This document shows, piece by piece, positions 1 to 6,355 of a stretch of DNA of 6,355 nt (position 1 is its first letter; each line of letters starts with the position of its first letter). The stretch is taken from the NCBI GenBank assembly GCA_025996655.1, contig BNTO01000054.1, positions 1-6,355 on the forward strand, given 5' to 3'. The stretch comes from Alphaproteobacteria bacterium (GTDB lineage: Bacteria > Pseudomonadota > Alphaproteobacteria > BNTO01). The position numbers and the translations under genes are program-made. Below the pieces are notes generated by a model. The model ran no database searches. It saw nothing but the letters and a program-made list of their open reading frames with translations, and had not been told where the DNA came from.

Positions 1-175
1 AAGGAAAGGGGGAGGCGTATCCCTTAAACACACGTTTTTGCTTGGTTCTAACGGCGGAGGGAGATTGTGTGACAAGGCCTTTTTCCTTGAGGTTGCAAAG
101 GATTCGGCCGACCGTGCTTTTGCTGAGACCTAAGCTTGAAAAGGCATTGGGAAAATATAATATTATCGTTCCCAT
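1..175 (-). pseudogene. Partial transposase-like HTH fragment (IS481/rve-integrase type), probably degraded
   Basis: Reading leftwards from an ATG at 175 there are 58 open codons running off the window edge. The peptide contains LSKSTVGRILCNLKEKGLV, the helix-turn-helix pattern (S-x-STVGRIL-x-x-L-x-x-x-G) that in IS481-like and related rve transposases lies just before the DDE catalytic core. A basic stretch (RTKQKRVFKGY) follows, as expected for the linker to that core. Just upstream, a second frame (ATG at 215, stop at 177-179) encodes MKDTPWEFGLST. Joining the frames with a one-base shift gives a continuous sequence across the junction, so a frameshift is likely. No catalytic residues are visible because the fragment leaves the window. 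The family assignment is from remembered motif patterns, not a search. A MarR-like winged helix is a less likely alternative. Confidence 0.45.
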
Positions 176-272
176 TTTAGGTTGAAAGGCCGAACTCCCA
201 TGGAGTATCTTTCATCTCAGGACGCTCTCGTACCGTCTCAAATTATGGGGACTTATACACTCTCTTCTTTTC

Positions 273-354
273 CTGTACAGCCTAGCGAATTTCGCCCAAA
301 ATGATTTTGGATTTTTGGATTTTTTTTCATCATGTCGTTCCAAGATCTTCTTGA
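273..354 (+). repeat. Leader repeat copy 1 (murD 5' region)
   Basis: This 82-nt block matches 3863-3944 without gaps at 71 of 82 positions. The first 15 bases, CTGTACAGCCTAGCG, are identical. It spans about 59 nt of leader plus the first seven or eight codons of murD. It contains the 8-bp palindrome CTGTACAG (273-280) and the inverted repeat GCGAA-T-TTCGC (285-295). No Shine-Dalgarno-like sequence stands before the murD ATG in either copy. The function is unknown; it may be a regulatory leader or a dispersed repeat that supplies a gene start. Confidence 0.85.
301..354 (+). other. Possible 17-residue leader ORF overlapping the murD start
   Basis: An ATG 31 nt before the murD ATG opens a frame of 17 codons plus TGA (MILDFWIFFHHVVPRSS). 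It ends 20 nt inside murD, in a different frame. The matching copy at 3891-3944 keeps the same length, start, stop and C-terminal pattern (HHVVP-basic-SS), with no indel. No ribosome binding site is visible. Conservation of the frame may simply reflect the recent copying of the block. Confidence 0.25.
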
Positions 355-1720
355 TCCATCTCCGCAAAAAGGTGTCCTCATTCTTGGCCGAGGGAAAACG
401 GGCGAAGCTGTTTTTGATTTTTTCCAAAAGAGAAACGTTAGTGCGTGGGTTTTTGACGAAGCAAAGCCTCATAGCCTGGTGCGCCTTGAAGATATCCCTT
501 GGGGGCACCTTGCTTTTCTTGTCCAAAGCCCAGGTTTCCCGCCGTCTCATCCCGTGTGTCTTCAGGCGCACAAAAAAAATCTTCCTATTTTGAGCGATAT
601 TGATATTTTCCGCCAATGCACCGTGGAAATGCGCTGCGTCGGCGTGACCGGAACCAACGGCAAATCCACAACAACCGCCCTTATCGGGCATGTGCTTCAG
701 CAGCATTTCCCCAAAGTTTTTGTGGGCGGCAATATTGGCGCCCCCGTCCTCACTCTTCCTTTGCCGGATACGCTGCCGCCCGGGTCCGCCCCCGTCTACG
801 TTTTGGAATTGTCTTCCTTTCAGCTCGAACTTGCGAACTCTCTTTCTTTAGAGGCCGCCGTTTGGACGAACTTGACCGAAGATCACTTAACGCGTCATCA
901 AACAATAGAAAAGTATAGTGCGGCCAAAAGAAAAATTTTTACGGACGCCAAAGCGTGCTTTGTCGGCGTGGATGACGCCTTTTCGCACGACGTGTACACG
1001 CAATTGAAGCAACAGGGGCGCGCGGTTTCTAGTTTTTCTTTAGCTCAAGGAGCGGATTATTGTGTGGACGTTCAAGGCATGTTGTGGGGGCAGACCTCTC
1101 AGGGGGCCCGCCCCATTTTTAGTTTGGCAAAGCACCCTTATCTTTCGGGCTGCCACAATTTTCAAAATATGGGGCTGGCCTATGGCGTTGCGAAATTTTT
1201 TGGCCTAGCCGACAAAGATATTGCCGAGGGCATTTTTTCGTTTCGAGGCCTTCCTCACCGCCTTGAACGGTGCGGTACCTGGAACGGCATCATTTTTATT
1301 AACGATAGCAAGGCCACCAACGCCGCCTCAACCCTTCAGGCGCTGCGGAGTTTTCCAAACGATTCGCTCTTTCTTATCGCTGGGGGCCGCCCCAAAAGCG
1401 ATGGCCTCACGCCCGCCATTTCCGCCATGCATAACGTCAAAAAAGTTTTTCTCATTGGAGAAGCGTCGGAACGCTTCGCGCAGGAATTAAAGGAACACAG
1501 TAACATTCCCTTTGCGTTTTGCCCAACGTTGGACCGCGCTCTTCACGAAGCGTTTCTTGAAGCCCAGCGAGCCGCGCCCCCAAAAGGCGCCCCCATCATT
1601 TTACTGTCCCCGGCCTGTGCCAGTTTCGACCAATTCTCCAGCTTTGAAGAACGCGGCGACTGTTTCAAAAATTGCGTCCAAAATCTCTTGAAAAAGGGGG
1701 GGCATAATGGCGCCACCTAA
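332..1720 (+). CDS. murD: UDP-N-acetylmuramoyl-L-alanine--D-glutamate ligase MurD
   Basis: This cytoplasmic Mur ligase adds D-glutamate to UDP-MurNAc-L-alanine using ATP. At 462 residues it is normal length. Visible landmarks: N-terminal UDP-binding loop GRGKTG (19-24) and SPGF (66-69); P-loop GVTGTNGKSTTT (104-115); GGNIG (132-136); ELSSFQLE (159-166); TNLTEDHLTRH (179-189, usually NLxPDHLDRH); the lysine expected to be carbamylated in YSAAKRKIF (K199); HNFQN (275-279); GLPHRLE (306-312); NDSKATN (324-330); and the C-terminal LSPACASFDQFSSFEERG (425-442). The ATG at 332 puts the UDP-binding loop at the usual distance from the N-terminus, but it lacks a visible Shine-Dalgarno sequence. Start and leader lie in a repeat shared with murG. 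The 3' end overlaps ftsW by 14 nt, implying co-transcription and translational coupling. Confidence 0.97.
   Translation: MSFQDLLDPSPQKGVLILGRGKTGEAVFDFFQKRNVSAWVFDEAKPHSLVRLEDIPWGHLAFLVQSPGFPPSHPVCLQAHKKNLPILSDIDIFRQCTVEMRCVGVTGTNGKSTTTALIGHVLQQHFPKVFVGGNIGAPVLTLPLPDTLPPGSAPVYVLELSSFQLELANSLSLEAAVWTNLTEDHLTRHQTIEKYSAAKRKIFTDAKACFVGVDDAFSHDVYTQLKQQGRAVSSFSLAQGADYCVDVQGMLWGQTSQGARPIFSLAKHPYLSGCHNFQNMGLAYGVAKFFGLADKDIAEGIFSFRGLPHRLERCGTWNGIIFINDSKATNAASTLQALRSFPNDSLFLIAGGRPKSDGLTPAISAMHNVKKVFLIGEASERFAQELKEHSNIPFAFCPTLDRALHEAFLEAQRAAPPKGAPIILLSPACASFDQFSSFEERGDCFKNCVQNLLKKGGHNGAT
1695..1702 (+). promoter_or_regulatory. Shine-Dalgarno of ftsW inside the murD 3' end
   Basis: AGGGGGGG ends four bases before the ATG at 1707. 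It lies within the last codons of murD and supports the chosen ftsW start and coupling of the two genes. Confidence 0.7.
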
Positions 1721-2852
1721 TCCCTCCTTTGTTCGGCGCGACGCCAGCGTCCTAGGCCGTTGGTGGTGGACGGTGGACCACGGCCTGCTGTGGGCCGTGC
1801 TGCTCCTCACGTTGATTGGCCTCGTCCTCAGCGTTTCGGCAAGCCCCTGCGTGGCGGCGCGCATTGGGTTTGCGCGTTTTTCTTTCGTCAAGAAACATTT
1901 TCTGATGGTGCCGCTCTCTCTTATGACCATGGTCGCCGTTTCGCTTCTTTCTCCACAAAATATTCGAAAATTTTCGCTTCTCGTTTTGGCGGCGGGCCTT
2001 TTCGGGCTGGTTCTCGTTCTTTTTGCGGGGCAGGAGATCAAGGGCGCAAAACGCTGGCTTTTCCTTTTTGGTTTTTCCCTGCAGCCGTCCGAATTTGTCA
2101 AACCCGCGCTTCTTATTCTTGTGGCGTGGCTTTTGACAGAACGGCACAAAGATGCCGACTTCCCCGGCTTTAAACTGGCCCTCTTTTTCATAGGTCTTGT
2201 CACAGCGCTCACGCTTTTGCAGCCGGATATTGGCATGACGCTTGTCATTATTATGTCTTGTATGGTGCAAATTTTTATCGCCGGCATGCCGTTGCTTTGG
2301 GTTTTTGTTCTTGCCTTTTTAGGCATTTCGGGGCTTTCACTTTCTTACTTTTTTATCCCGCATGTGGCTAATCGCCTGGATGCGTTTTTCCATCCCGAAA
2401 CGGGCGACCCGGATCAACTCTATCAAATCCGCCAATCGCTGGCCGCCTTTCATCACGGCGGTTGGTGGGGGTGCGGGCCCGGTGAAGGCATTATTAAGCG
2501 CTTGGTCCCGGACGCGCACGCGGATTTTGTGTTTTCGGTGGCGGGCGAGGAATACGGCCTTATTCTTTGCCTTTTTATCGCGGCGCTTTTCGCTTTCGTC
2601 GTGATTCGCTCCCTCTTTCTTGCGATGCGCCAACAAAATTTATTTGTTATTTTTAGCGTCACGGGCCTTTCGGTTCAGTTTGGGCTGCAAGCGTTTATTA
2701 ATATGGCCACAGCGCTGCGCCTCATCCCCACCAAGGGAATGACGCTGCCTTTTGTGAGCTACGGCGGCTCGTCCATTATTGCGGTCGGGCTTGGGATGGG
2801 TATGGTCCTGGCTTTAACGCAAAAACGGCATGGATTTGTAGGGGATTTATAA
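1707..2852 (+). CDS. ftsW: Septal peptidoglycan glycosyltransferase FtsW (SEDS family)
   Basis: This polytopic inner-membrane SEDS protein polymerises lipid II at the division septum together with FtsI. It has 381 residues with about ten hydrophobic segments. The N-terminus WWWTVDHGLLWAVLLL (19-34) followed by SASP (44-47) is typical of alphaproteobacterial FtsW. Other landmarks: EIKGAKRW (110-117); LQPSEFVKP (125-133); LQPDIGMT (171-178), with the catalytic-loop aspartate at 174; PETGDPDQLYQIRQSLAAF (230-248); GGWWGCGPGEG (251-261); DAHADFVFSVAGEEYG (269-284); and LPFVSYGGSS (347-356). Pattern and motif set favour FtsW over RodA because it lies between murD and (remnant) murG. It is intact. 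It is followed five bases later by a broken murG start instead of the intact gene. Confidence 0.97.
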   Translation: MAPPNPSFVRRDASVLGRWWWTVDHGLLWAVLLLTLIGLVLSVSASPCVAARIGFARFSFVKKHFLMVPLSLMTMVAVSLLSPQNIRKFSLLVLAAGLFGLVLVLFAGQEIKGAKRWLFLFGFSLQPSEFVKPALLILVAWLLTERHKDADFPGFKLALFFIGLVTALTLLQPDIGMTLVIIMSCMVQIFIAGMPLLWVFVLAFLGISGLSLSYFFIPHVANRLDAFFHPETGDPDQLYQIRQSLAAFHHGGWWGCGPGEGIIKRLVPDAHADFVFSVAGEEYGLILCLFIAALFAFVVIRSLFLAMRQQNLFVIFSVTGLSVQFGLQAFINMATALRLIPTKGMTLPFVSYGGSSIIAVGLGMGMVLALTQKRHGFVGDL

Positions 2853-2857
2853 AAAAG

Positions 2858-2998
2858 ATGGAACGGTTAGGGAAGGCGGGAGCGGCGAAAAAAGCGCCTC
2901 TTTTCGTGTTGGCGCCGGAGGAACGGGCTGTTCCAAAAACGTGGCGTACGGAAAAATCTTGTCGCTTGAACAAGGCTATGCGATTTTTCTTGACATAA
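2858..2998 (+). pseudogene. murG: Truncated, frameshifted remnant of the murG 5' end
   Basis: Five bases after the ftsW stop, at the expected murG position, an ATG opens 46 codons beginning MERLGKAGAAKKAPLFVLA. The stretch 2886-2927 matches 4016-4058 of the intact murG with two substitutions and one missing base. The deletion lies in the codons for the AAGGTGG nucleotide-sugar-binding loop and shifts the frame, giving APEERAVPK in place of AAGGTGG. Restoring the base gives LAAGGTG, after which nucleotide similarity to murG stops. The most likely reading is that this was the original murG start, now a decayed stub. A short expressed 46-residue peptide is possible but has no supporting signal. 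Its tail contains the promoter of the next gene. Confidence 0.8.
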
Positions 2999-3018
2999 GC
3001 CTTTTATCTTATTATACA
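2990..3018 (+). promoter_or_regulatory. Sigma70-type promoter of the 3098-3634 gene
   Basis: A perfect -35 TTGACA (2990-2995) is separated by 17 nt from a -10-like TATACA (3013-3018). This is the best promoter match in the window. Transcription would begin near 3025, leaving a leader of about 70 nt before the ATG at 3098. The -35 overlaps the end of the murG remnant. Confidence 0.65.
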
Positions 3019-3097
3019 TTAAAATTATGGGGGACGCTTTCTTTTTTCTGAATTAGGGTGCGTTCATTTTTTGTTTTTTTATTTATTGGAGATTTTT

Positions 3098-3634
3098 ATG
3101 AATTTTAAGAAAATTTTATTTGTTGCCCCTATGTGCATGGGATTGTTAAGTGCGGGGCAAAGCAGTCTTCACTTTGTAACGAGCGACGGACTAGTATTGA
3201 CGGAAAGAACTGCTACAGCTGCGGTGATTAAGAACTTAAAAGGACATGACAAAGATCGCTATAGACAAAGCAATTCCTTCGCTGTCAGACCCGACAAGGA
3301 ACTTCTTTTGAAGGAACTTTACAAGAGCGATTTGAGCGAGCCGCCTTTGGGCGCGACTGGCCAAGAAGCCGCAGGCGCCCTAAGAGACGAAAGAAGGGTG
3401 AATAACTCCGTGGGAGGGATCGAAATCTTTGGAAGTTACGAATCTGCATTTTTGACGGGTTGCGGGTCGGTAGACATTTTTAGCCCAGCGGAGCGGGTCG
3501 TAAAGGTTTTAAAAGCGATCAAAATAAAATATCCAGAGGTACTGGGAAGGTACCTCAAAAGCAAAGCTTACACTCAACATACCGGCAAAGCGCGGCTGGA
3601 CAATCTGCTAGAAGCGGAAAACCTATTTGACTAA
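3098..3634 (+). CDS. Small exported protein of unknown function
   Basis: I do not recognise this 178-residue protein. ATG 3098 is chosen because GGAG (3088-3091) lies six bases upstream; a longer form from TTG 3071 has no such site. The N-terminus MNFKKILFVAPMCMGLLSAG has lysines then a hydrophobic core, a likely Sec signal peptide cleaved near residues 18-20. The mature part is hydrophilic and charged. It contains a Gly/Ser patch with one cysteine (LTGCGSVDIFSP, 119-130) and a basic, probably helical C-terminal half (VVKVLKAIKIKYPEVLGRYLKS, in part 134-155). Seven of ten arginine codons are AGA or AGG, whereas murD, ftsW and murG mostly use CGN. This suggests recent arrival or low expression. 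It has its own promoter and a terminator downstream, so it is a separate transcription unit inserted between ftsW and murG. Confidence 0.8.
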   Translation: MNFKKILFVAPMCMGLLSAGQSSLHFVTSDGLVLTERTATAAVIKNLKGHDKDRYRQSNSFAVRPDKELLLKELYKSDLSEPPLGATGQEAAGALRDERRVNNSVGGIEIFGSYESAFLTGCGSVDIFSPAERVVKVLKAIKIKYPEVLGRYLKSKAYTQHTGKARLDNLLEAENLFD

Positions 3635-3674
3635 CTTCTTCTTCCTTCCTCTCCGGCAAATGTGGAGAAATGTC

Positions 3675-3684
3675 GGGGGGGGGG
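3675..3684 (+). repeat. G10 homopolymer tract
   Basis: Ten consecutive G residues are flanked by TGTC and ACA. Tracts of this length are prone to slipped-strand length change. It lies 41 nt after a stop codon, outside any supported gene, so no frame-switching role is evident. Confidence 0.9.
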
Positions 3685-3777
3685 ACAACTCTAAAAAGAA
3701 GTTGAGTCGAAAAGAAGGCAACAGAAGATCGAAATCACAAGGAAAAGCTTGGAAGGTTCCATTTTTCTCGAACTCAA

Positions 3778-3794
3778 AAGTCTCCGGGAGACTT
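3778..3794 (+). repeat. Perfect short inverted repeat just before the terminator
   Basis: AAGTCTCCGGGAGACTT can fold as a six- or seven-pair stem with a very small loop. It directly abuts the terminator hairpin, so the transcript would end in two tandem hairpins. It may stabilise the 3' end or be a protein-binding palindrome. Confidence 0.7.
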
Positions 3795-3795
3795 G

Positions 3796-3840
3796 ACTCC
3801 GCTGTTTCTGTAAGCAGATTCAGCGGAGTTTTCTTTTGTT
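3796..3840 (+). terminator. Rho-independent terminator
   Basis: The stem ACTCCGCTG (3796-3804) pairs perfectly with CAGCGGAGT (3821-3829) and is followed by the T-rich tail TTTTCTTTTGTT. The loop can form an inner CTG/CAG pair. It should end transcription of the 3098-3634 gene and isolate murG from upstream transcription, so murG probably needs its own promoter. Confidence 0.85.
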
Positions 3841-3862
3841 ACCGCAATTTCTCTTTTTTTTT

Positions 3863-3944
3863 CTGTACAGCCTAGCGCATTTCGCCAAAAATGAAGTTGG
3901 ATTTTATGATTGGTTCTCATCATGTCGTTCCCAAATCTTCTTGA
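3863..3944 (+). repeat. Leader repeat copy 2 (murG 5' region)
   Basis: This is an 82-nt block, 71 of 82 identical and ungapped to 273-354. It keeps the palindrome CTGTACAG (3863-3870). The second inverted repeat is partly spoiled (GCGCATTTCGC, 3875-3885). It supplies the murG start codon and first seven or eight codons, giving MSFPNLLD compared with MSFQDLLD in MurD. The two proteins are otherwise unrelated at this end, so the similarity reflects copied DNA and not protein homology. Confidence 0.85.
3891..3944 (+). other. Possible 17-residue leader ORF overlapping the murG start
   Basis: An ATG 31 nt before the murG ATG opens 17 codons plus TGA (MKLDFMIGSHHVVPKSS). It parallels the frame at 301-354 exactly in length and position. 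Most differences between the two peptides are non-synonymous in the first half, while HHVVP-K/R-SS is kept. No ribosome binding site is seen. It is listed as a candidate only. Confidence 0.25.
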
Positions 3945-5127
3945 CAACTCTCCCACCAAAGCGGCACACCAAAAATCGAATTCTGAAGAGCCCGGCAAAA
4001 AAAACCGAAAGAGATCGAAAAAAGCGCCTCTTTTTGTGTTGGCCGCCGGGGGAACGGGAGGGCACGTGTTTCCAGCGCTGAGTTTGGCGCGGGTCCTTAA
4101 ACAGCGGGGCCATCGCGTTGTCCTTTTTACGGATGAGCGCGCTGAACCCTGGGTTCAGCCTCAAGATTTTGCGCGCATTTTTGTGACCCACTTAAAAAAA
4201 ACACACGGGCGGACCACGCGCCTTTCGTTTGCCTTGCGCTTGCTTGGGTGCGGCGTCAAAAGTCTGGCTTTTTTCGTAAGGCACCGCCCCGCTGTCGTTG
4301 TAGGCTTTGGCGGCTACCCTTCGGCTCCCACCGTTTTGGCCGCCCAATGGCTGCGTATTCCCTTTGTGTTGCACGAATGCAACGCTTTGCTAGGGCGAGC
4401 AAATGAAAGGCTTATGCCCAAAGCCAGGGCTGTCACGACAGGATTTCCCGAAGTCTCGAAGATTGATGCGAAAAAACAAATTTTTGTGGGGAATCCTTTA
4501 AGGCAAGAATTTGAGGCGCTTAAAGCGCATTCTTATGAACCGCCTCAAAAATCAGGCCCCCTGAATCTTCTTGTTTTGGGGGGCAGCCAGGGCTCTCACA
4601 TTTTTTCCAGCACCGTTCCCTTGGCCCTTCAGGCGCTTCCTCAAGAATTTTTAAGGCGTCTGTCCCTTGTTCAGCAAGTCCGCGAGGCCGACGCAGAAAC
4701 GGTGAAGCACGGGTACGCGCGCCTTGGCGTTTCCGCTACGTTACGCCCTTTTTTTAAGGATGTCGCCCAACAGCTTGATTCTGCCCATATGATCATTTCC
4801 CGCTCAGGCGCGCTTACGCTGGCCGAAATAGCCGCGGCGGGCCTCCCTTCTATCTTGGTTCCTCTGGCGCATTCACGCGACGGGGATCAATTTGCGAACG
4901 CGTCGCACTACCGCGATGCGGGCGCAGCTGTTTTGATGGAAGAGAAGGATTTTGTGCCGGAAAAACTCAAAAATGTTTTGCTGGAATTGTTTGAAAACGC
5001 GGAGGTCCTCAAAAAAATGAGCCTCGCCGCGCGCAAAAAAGCGTGCTTCCATGCGACGGAAAAAATGGCGGATGAGGTGGATCGACGAGTTTGGGGAAGA
5101 AAAAACAAAAAAGTTTACGATTCTTGA
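3922..5127 (+). CDS. murG: UDP-GlcNAc:lipid I N-acetylglucosaminyltransferase MurG, with a mosaic N-terminus
   Basis: This peripheral inner-membrane GT-B glycosyltransferase transfers GlcNAc from UDP-GlcNAc to lipid I, forming lipid II. From ATG 3922 it has 401 residues, longer than usual (about 355-370) because of an N-terminal extension. Landmarks: AAGGTGGHVFPAL (41-53), GFGGYPS (128-134), HECNALLGRAN (151-161), GNPLR (190-194), LGGSQGS (219-225), and SRSGALTLAEIAAAGLPSIL (293-312) followed by VPLAHSRDGDQFANA (313-327). The usual HEQN reads HECN here, a Gln-to-Cys change at residue 153. The ATG at 3922 matches the murD start in the shared leader repeat; a TTG at 3910 would add four residues. 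Residues 1-8 come from the repeat, about 9-31 are a charged linker, and the native sequence resumes at SKKAPLFVLAAGG. It is not followed by murC. Confidence 0.96.
   Translation: MSFPNLLDNSPTKAAHQKSNSEEPGKKNRKRSKKAPLFVLAAGGTGGHVFPALSLARVLKQRGHRVVLFTDERAEPWVQPQDFARIFVTHLKKTHGRTTRLSFALRLLGCGVKSLAFFVRHRPAVVVGFGGYPSAPTVLAAQWLRIPFVLHECNALLGRANERLMPKARAVTTGFPEVSKIDAKKQIFVGNPLRQEFEALKAHSYEPPQKSGPLNLLVLGGSQGSHIFSSTVPLALQALPQEFLRRLSLVQQVREADAETVKHGYARLGVSATLRPFFKDVAQQLDSAHMIISRSGALTLAEIAAAGLPSILVPLAHSRDGDQFANASHYRDAGAAVLMEEKDFVPEKLKNVLLELFENAEVLKKMSLAARKKACFHATEKMADEVDRRVWGRKNKKVYDS
4016..4058 (+). repeat. Direct repeat of the murG 5' coding block (intact copy)
   Basis: This 43-nt segment of murG, encoding AAGGTG at its end, recurs at 2886-2927 in the same orientation with two substitutions and a one-base deletion. 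The two copies bracket about 1.09 kb containing the secreted-protein gene, terminator and leader repeat copy 2. Confidence 0.85.
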
Positions 5128-5280: not shown

Positions 5281-5802
5281 ATGCGAAAAACAAATGCATG
5301 GTCTTGTCAAGAAATAGAGTCTTTAAAAAATGGTTTTTTGGAGGGTACGCCCTTTAAAATTTTGTCACAAAAATTGGGACGTTCGCCAACGGCGCTCAAC
5401 AAAGCCGTGTCGCGTTTTCATATTCGGCAAGTTATGCGCTCGAACAAATCCATTCTTGTTGCGTGTACGGCGCCTATTTCGGTGGAGGCGCCGCCCTGCA
5501 AAACGAGAAGAACGGCCAACGCCCTCTTTGCACAAACACGCGCGGCCACCATTGACGAAATCATTAATTTTTTGAAAGACAATGGCTACGACATTCGCAA
5601 AAAAACGGTTCCTTGCGGCAACAACGTGACCGAACATTATTTTGTGAACAGATGGGCTATTTCGGCGACACGTTTGTTAGTCATGGCGAACAGCATTCGC
5701 CTTGAAAGAAAACTTCCAATTTTTCAAATCAAATTTGTAAAAAAAAGGGTTCCCAAGAAAAGAGACGAGGAACGGGTGGGAAGAGGCCGCTTGAAAGGAT
5801 GA
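5281..5802 (+). CDS. Basic SANT/Myb-like helix-turn-helix protein
   Basis: This is a 173-residue, strongly basic protein of unknown exact role. Residues 7-49 (starting WSCQEIESLKNGFLEG and ending SRFHIRQ) show the pattern of a small three-helix DNA-binding domain: an initial Trp, acidic residues and Leu in helix 1, then FKILSQKLGRSPTALNKAVSRF as a helix-turn-helix with GRSPTAL at the turn. This resembles the short SANT/Myb or GcrA-like N-terminal domains seen in alphaproteobacterial regulators, but the GcrA signature itself is not clear. After a linker (50-88), a second region (89-156) begins TIDEIINFLKDNGYDI, possibly a second small helical fold, and ends in a Lys/Arg-rich tail. It is predicted cytoplasmic and DNA-binding. 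A sigma-like or phage-derived regulator is an alternative. Confidence 0.7.
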   Translation: MRKTNAWSCQEIESLKNGFLEGTPFKILSQKLGRSPTALNKAVSRFHIRQVMRSNKSILVACTAPISVEAPPCKTRRTANALFAQTRAATIDEIINFLKDNGYDIRKKTVPCGNNVTEHYFVNRWAISATRLLVMANSIRLERKLPIFQIKFVKKRVPKKRDEERVGRGRLKG

Positions 5803-5922: not shown

Positions 5923-6355
5923 ATGAACAAAAACGTACCAGTTTTTAAATGTTTTCATTTTTTTAAACTGTCCCGTCTCTTTTTTTTACTCTTATGCGTA
6001 GGAAAGAATCCTCTTTATGCTTTCGATCTTGGTGGCCTTTTAAACAGCGTTGGAGGAACCGTTAGTAATTTAATGAGGCCAAGCACGCCGACACCCATGC
6101 CGCCGCAGCCCATGCCGCCGCAGCCCATGCCGCCGCAGCCCATGATGCCGCCGCAAGTGATGTCGCCGCAGCCGCAAATGCCCTATCAGCAGCAAATGTC
6201 GCCACCACCAATGGGCTATGGCACGCCGCCACCAATGGGCTATGGCACGCCGCCACCAATGGGCTATGGCACGCCGCCACCAATGGGCTATGGCACGCCG
6301 CCACCAATGGGCTATGGCACGCCGCCACCAATGGGCTATGGCACGCCGCCACCAA
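5923..6355 (+). CDS. Exported proline-rich tandem-repeat protein (3' end outside window)
   Basis: This open frame begins at ATG 5923 and runs past the window end, with 144 codons visible. The first 33 residues look like a signal peptide: basic N-region (MNKNVPVFKCFHFFKLSR), hydrophobic LFFLLLCVG (19-27), and a likely cleavage after LYA (31-33). Residues 34-58 (FDLGGLLNSVGGTVSNLM...) are a short Gly-rich start to the mature protein. Then come three MPPQP units (59-73), a Met/Pro/Gln-rich transition, and from residue 97 at least six identical MGYGTPPP units. No Shine-Dalgarno sequence is evident. Such a composition suggests an extended surface or cell-wall-spanning linker. Low-complexity repeats make homology claims unsafe, and the family is unknown. 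Confidence 0.8.
   Translation, partial: MNKNVPVFKCFHFFKLSRLFFLLLCVGKNPLYAFDLGGLLNSVGGTVSNLMRPSTPTPMPPQPMPPQPMPPQPMMPPQVMSPQPQMPYQQQMSPPPMGYGTPPPMGYGTPPPMGYGTPPPMGYGTPPPMGYGTPPPMGYGTPPP
6097..6141 (+). repeat. Three 15-bp tandem units encoding MPPQP
   Basis: ATGCCGCCGCAGCCC occurs three times in a row, in frame. A degenerate continuation (MMPPQV, MSPQPQ) follows, suggesting older decayed copies of the same unit. Confidence 0.9.
6211..6355 (+). repeat. Six identical 24-bp tandem units encoding MGYGTPPP, continuing beyond the window
   Basis: Six full units (6211-6354) are identical at every base, and the array begins a seventh at 6355. Each unit is eight codons (MGYGTPPP), so copy-number changes keep the frame. 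The lack of any base difference implies recent expansion or ongoing homogenisation. Confidence 0.95.

Follow-up and report, generated by a model that had tools for sequence, protein, structure and literature searches.

How does a gene of a conserved operon come to have two starts, a broken one directly behind ftsW and an intact one further downstream, with another gene in between? The murG gene raises this question in the window, i.e., the whole stretch of DNA that was analysed, which is an entire contig of 6,355 bases from a genome of 1.23 Mb (318 contigs, 92% complete). The host is a small-genome bacterium of a Holosporales-type family, and the gene order is murD, ftsW, an orphan ORF, murG, the ORF at 5281-5802 and an ORF truncated by the contig end, with the following features:

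134..259, + strand: right end of a dispersed repeat (IS481-associated), ending ...ACTTATACA at 259
260..362, + strand: murD leader and first codons (donor copy), with 86 of 100 aligned bases matching 3851-3950
332..1720, + strand: murD (TIGR01087, 353 bits, above the cut-off)
1707..2852, + strand: ftsW (top match TIGR02614 at 336.4 bits, just below the cut-off of 337.5; also PF01098)
2850-2852, + strand: ftsW stop codon
2858..2927, + strand: frameshifted murG start stub at the canonical site 3' of ftsW; 2886-2927 matches 4016-4058
2990..3018, + strand: promoter-like site of the orphan gene, TTGACA-17-TATACA, seen by eye and absent from the promoter scan list
3098..3634, + strand: orphan ORF of 178 aa, with an N-terminus that looks secreted (by eye)
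3796..3829, + strand: hairpin resembling a terminator, placed between the orphan gene and the leader of murG, absent from the scan list
3851..3950, + strand: diverged copy of the murD leader and start, by similarity to 260-362, now leader and start of murG (ATG 3922)
3922..5127, + strand: murG, apparently chimeric, 401 aa (TIGR01133, 258 bits, above the cut-off of 250.25)
3951..4015, + strand: in-frame linker of 65 nt, with no significant similarity in pairwise comparisons
5281..5802: ORF 3' of murG, 173 aa, with no convincing family match (Pfam, NCBIfam)
Contig end: last ORF, which runs off the contig inside a repeat

That last repeat (6200-6355) is an array of a 24-base unit encoding a GYGTPPPM-type peptide repeat, and the contig breaks off within it.

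Two murG starts behind ftsW

The stub behind ftsW is 70 bases long, its ATG (2858) lies 5 bases 3' of the ftsW stop, and its frame is shifted by a one-base deletion. Its second part differs from the intact block at 4016-4058 by 2 substitutions and 1 indel in 42 aligned bases, and the local score of 71 compares with 43 for the highest of 500 first-order Markov shuffles, so that the claim of an earlier note, made from the letters of this DNA, that a murG start block is present twice in direct orientation, with the frameshifted copy five bases after ftsW, was borne out. When the stub's first part (2858-2885) is joined to 4016 onward, an in-frame MurG with an ordinary start is obtained (MERLGKAGAAKKAPLFVLAAGGTGG). 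The DNA similarity of the 42/43-nt repeat ends abruptly at both borders, and neither DNA nor protein comparison found further murG past 2927. A longer remnant there had seemed possible by eye and was rejected: frame 1 did not stand out from shuffles when aligned to the window's MurG (682 of 1000 did as well), and against the N-terminal parts of 118 MurG proteins it averaged 15.4, compared with 15.8 for shuffles. Frame 0 beat the shuffles against the same 118 parts (6 of 200 as good), over only 13 residues, and against the window's MurG 710 of 1000 shuffles were as good.

Between stub and new start lies the orphan gene, which is closed by a strong hairpin followed by T residues; the stretch 3780-3840 folds at -28.9 kcal/mol (z -5.8), a stability that 0 of 200 shuffles equalled. 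The promoter-like site and the terminator-like hairpin of the self-contained gene proposed earlier are both absent from the scan list; the former was seen by eye. Due to this hairpin, transcription from ftsW or from the orphan gene is predicted not to reach murG well. As for the orphan itself, no match was found in Pfam or NCBIfam at E up to 1 and no homologue in 8 family genomes, a protein search retrieved only the query, and the structure model was uninformative (mean pLDDT 34). A stretch at its front (3069-3117) resembles the front end of a gene on another contig of the same genome (G000:C8:3970-4017, - strand; 84% over 49 bases). The stretch common to both is ribosome-site and signal-peptide DNA, which suggests that secreted genes of the host may share a front-end module.

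Is the interval then a mobile cassette, which carried the orphan gene into the front part of murG and gave murG a replacement start? It had been likened to an element of this kind, comparable to integrative islands, which restore a tRNA 3' end. The flanking direct repeat (2886-2927 and 4016-4058) and an orphan gene with a promoter-like site and a terminator hairpin are what such a cassette would show, and the likeness to integrative islands extends to the short direct repeat around the insert and to a target gene made whole. However, here it is a 5' end that is restored, with no integrase, and the new start comes from murD, i.e., it is a copy from the same cluster. The observation that no integrase is visible holds for 2929-3850, where only the orphan ORF, without any Pfam or NCBIfam match, exceeds 82 aa and no integrase-sized frame is found besides it. 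Searching the own genome for the insert gave no other copy of it, only the murD leader and a 48-base match in C8. With neither an integrase-sized frame nor another copy or a homologue, the cassette is distinctly improbable.

The murD leader as source of the new start

The intact murG does have a different leader and N-terminus, as stated earlier; what had been missed is their source, the leader and first codons of murD. The two leaders (260-362 and 3851-3950) differ by 14 substitutions in 100 aligned bases plus 3 gap columns, score 133 (at most 45 in 500 shuffles) and match at E 1.1e-23 in a search of the own genome, in which no other copies of the leader were found at useful E-values. At the protein level, the MurD start MSFQDLLDPSP has its counterpart in the MurG start MSFPNLLDNSP, and judged by its sequence MurG reads as a chimera of a MurD-like start, a 65-nt linker and a MurG body. 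Two starts are listed for murG, TTG 3910 and ATG 3922, and protein P0001 implies a third, GTG 4036, which falls inside the first strand of the MurG domain and would cut that strand. Since no in-frame ATG, GTG or TTG occurs between 3922 and 4036, translation of a complete MurG has to begin in the murD-like part, at ATG 3922 or at TTG 3910 of the same copy.

No known leader RNA was found in Rfam at E up to 1, both leaders fold in an ordinary manner (z -0.8 and +1.0), and the promoter scan listed 10 candidates where 5.2 +/- 2.9 were expected, an excess over chance that is not convincing. Each leader holds an overlapping frame of 17 codons (MILDFWIFFHHVVPRSS at 301-354 and MKLDFMIGSHHVVPKSS at 3891-3944) that begins before the start of murD or murG and ends inside that gene start; these frames may be due to chance or may be coupling frames.

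The leader homology upstream of murD stops at the end of the dispersed repeat (base 259) or within about 5 bases of it. Copies of this repeat were found in contigs C118, C6, C107, C68, C35, C46, C75 and C16, and weakly in C83; 7 of the 10 repeat ends compared (window included) read TTAYACA at the end point, after which the flanks differ. The window, C6 and C35 have 5 further bases in common, CTCTC, so that the repeat may end a few bases later and the coincidence of the two borders is good to about 5 bases, not exact. With the break in homology at a repeat end, the duplicated stretch may originally have extended further upstream. In C35 the repeat sits behind an IS481 transposase fragment, and so does the weakly similar copy in C83. 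The IS481 family gave 16 matches in the own genome, mostly fragments and none above the curated cut-off, and the same search was also positive in 10 of 14 control genomes. Further upstream, 1-127 and 129-255 match contigs C105 and C118 exactly over 127 bases; these are probably assembler k-mer overlaps, which makes the window's first bases uncertain.

Could the whole arrangement be an artefact of assembly, as had been considered earlier? The genome is a fragmented MAG of 318 contigs, and the exact 127-base matches to two other contigs fall within the window's first 255 bases. However, the copies of the repeats differ from each other, and both the orphan protein and MurG occur in 2 contigs (the longest of 14,096 bases), one of which is possibly the window's own contig. 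We regard this explanation as very improbable.

The position of murG in relatives

In most of the alphaproteobacteria covered, ftsW is followed by murG. Among the best 80 of 151 FtsW loci, 4 were too short and 76 were informative, and murG adjoins ftsW in 61 of these 76 (56 within 600 bases and 5 overlapping the ftsW end); 6 of the 15 loci without murG behind ftsW are titled Holosporales or Holosporaceae, and one of these six is from G003. In a second set, of loci from the same class, murG lies next to ftsW in 22 of 23, and the remaining contig ends early. Adjacency of ftsW and murG is thus ancestral in the outgroups, in agreement with the view that murG has been rebuilt and that a decayed native start remains after ftsW.

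Within the family, murG is behind ftsW in none of the 6 relatives with a readable junction (0.9 to 5 kb downstream), and all 6 have murG on another contig. The junction comparison proposed earlier, which was to find ftsW directly followed by murG in close relatives, gave this order outside the family and not in these 6 family relatives; no closer relative with an intermediate arrangement was found. Searches of G001 and G004 yielded a weaker RodA-like match instead of an FtsW orthologue, and in G001 MurG was not found either. The 7 family relatives in which murG was located present it in six different neighbourhoods:

G005: sodium:sulfate symporter-type gene
G002: phosphoglucose isomerase gene
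G004: recO
G006 and G007: EamA transporter gene
G003: lgt
G008: unnamed ORF

Among 7 family genomes compared, the own included, only the own one has a copy of the murG start behind ftsW; the murD and murG leaders could be compared in 5 family genomes, and again only the own was positive. A candidate for leader capture in G003 was rejected, its score of 77 (from a list in which 40 of 217 candidates were scored) being due to a repeat dispersed through that genome, for which 40 matches reach at least E 7e-57. This repeat (L052:1290-1494) is about 150 bases long, has inverted ends and stops at the murG start codon.

In a tree of FtsW and MurG (20 genomes, 718 columns), G002 and the four g5 genomes form a group (86.9/87) to which the own genome is sister, with a support of 99.2/99 for the whole clade, and G003 and G005 lie outside. 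If the stub marks the ancestral site, murG would have moved away from ftsW on two or more further occasions within the family.

Origin and meaning of the arrangement

In the window, the leader with its start and the start of murG are each present twice, one murG is truncated, and the orphan gene with its terminator-like hairpin lies in between. Our best explanation, which we hold with even confidence, is a tandem duplication of the region leader-murD-ftsW-murG with a breakpoint inside murG, followed by the deletion of the redundant murD and ftsW. The stub would stem from the breakpoint inside murG: of the left copy, murD and ftsW would have survived with only the first 70 bases of murG, and of the right copy the leader, the first codons of murD and everything in murG past roughly codon 10, the deletion having fused the start of murD to murG. 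An IS481-type element, the end of which adjoins the murD leader today, would have taken the place of the upstream part of the left copy or pushed it away, possibly together with a second orphan gene; this would explain the lost upstream homology. Behind the terminator, murG is predicted to be transcribed and translated from the borrowed leader, independently of read-through from ftsW. Two of the traces that duplication and deletion would leave were found, i.e., a leader copy fused to murG and a truncated murG at the joint. Tandem duplication followed by decay had been named earlier as the alternative to insertion; once the leader copy of murD is seen, it fits better.

What can be found of the second murD? 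The stretch 2928-2975 resembles the murD tail at 1660-1697 (1 of 1000 shuffles as good), a similarity picked from 58 comparisons, with ranges narrowed afterwards, and the only one of the 58 above the 99% level; the protein-level check against MurG, the MurD tail and MurD did not clearly support it, the best of 9 comparisons being equalled by 38 of 1000 shuffles. The best murD match of the linker is 1629-1657, which by itself has no significance (540 of 1000 shuffles did as well). These matches to neighbouring stretches of murD are placed as remnants of a second murD would be, which is a weak indication in favour of the duplication. The 65-nt linker is otherwise unexplained by it, and counts against it, as do the lack of a second orphan gene copy in searches of the 92%-complete genome and of an intermediate in any closer relative.

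The main rival of duplication and deletion, possible although clearly less probable, is template switching in one step, in which the replication machinery would have jumped out of murG around codon 24, run through other DNA (the orphan gene and the murD leader) and returned to murG at a point 42 bases earlier. The sharp borders of the 42/43-nt repeat agree with it, the linker suits the filler found at such junctions, and a single event would yield the stub, the insert and the borrowed start. However, two or more switches would be required, switching does not by itself account for the leader homology ending where the repeat in front of murD ends, and the orphan gene would need a further source, no second copy of it having been found in the 92%-complete genome. 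A stepwise history is unlikely; in it, the operon would first have been interrupted by the orphan gene, and ectopic recombination, favoured by selection for expression, would afterwards have given murG the murD leader. A strong hairpin before murG would make a new leader useful, and the two repeats differ in divergence (14 of 100 substitutions in the leader, or 14%, and 2 of 42 in the stub, or 5%), but murG would have had to survive without a start in between. The difference in divergence is not significant (p 0.15) and does not decide between one event and two.

Returning to duplication and deletion, how does it compare with what is known? The Cit+ trait of the long-term E. coli experiment is reportedly a case of promoter capture or co-option. 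In two papers (PMC5526668, PMC11111574), this name is given to a gene placed by rearrangement, through duplication or deletion, under a copied or neighbouring upstream region, and murG would have gained its upstream region in the same manner. Unlike those cases, the present one arose in nature and concerns a cell-wall gene that has taken leader and first codons from a neighbour in the cluster, with a stub of the former start remaining at the canonical site. The locus also resembles operon break-up in host-associated bacteria, murG being away from ftsW in several Holosporales-type genomes, whereas here the move is short and the stub records the old site. In the literature searched (murG, Holosporales, dcw and promoter capture; few subscription journals), a murG with a murD leader was not reported. 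We regard the case as a variation on leader capture and operon break-up, neither a mobile element nor a new type of element, and the arrangement as a real evolutionary intermediate.

A broader reading, which we put forward tentatively and consider rather doubtful, is that murG leaves its operon in this family by repeated borrowing of front ends: a copy with its own leader would become independent, the native one would rot and the gene would be free to roam, and this genome would have been caught in mid-step, with a borrowed start, a rotting start and a first spacer gene. To our knowledge, one can seldom observe how a gene thought unlosable leaves a conserved operon with no period in which its function is lost. 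In the window, 4 kb are enough to hold the former start of murG, its present start and the sequence from which the latter was copied, and the succession of events thereby becomes readable and testable. The prediction is a MurG with a MurD-like N-terminus, encoded by a murG that would be freed from translational coupling to ftsW.
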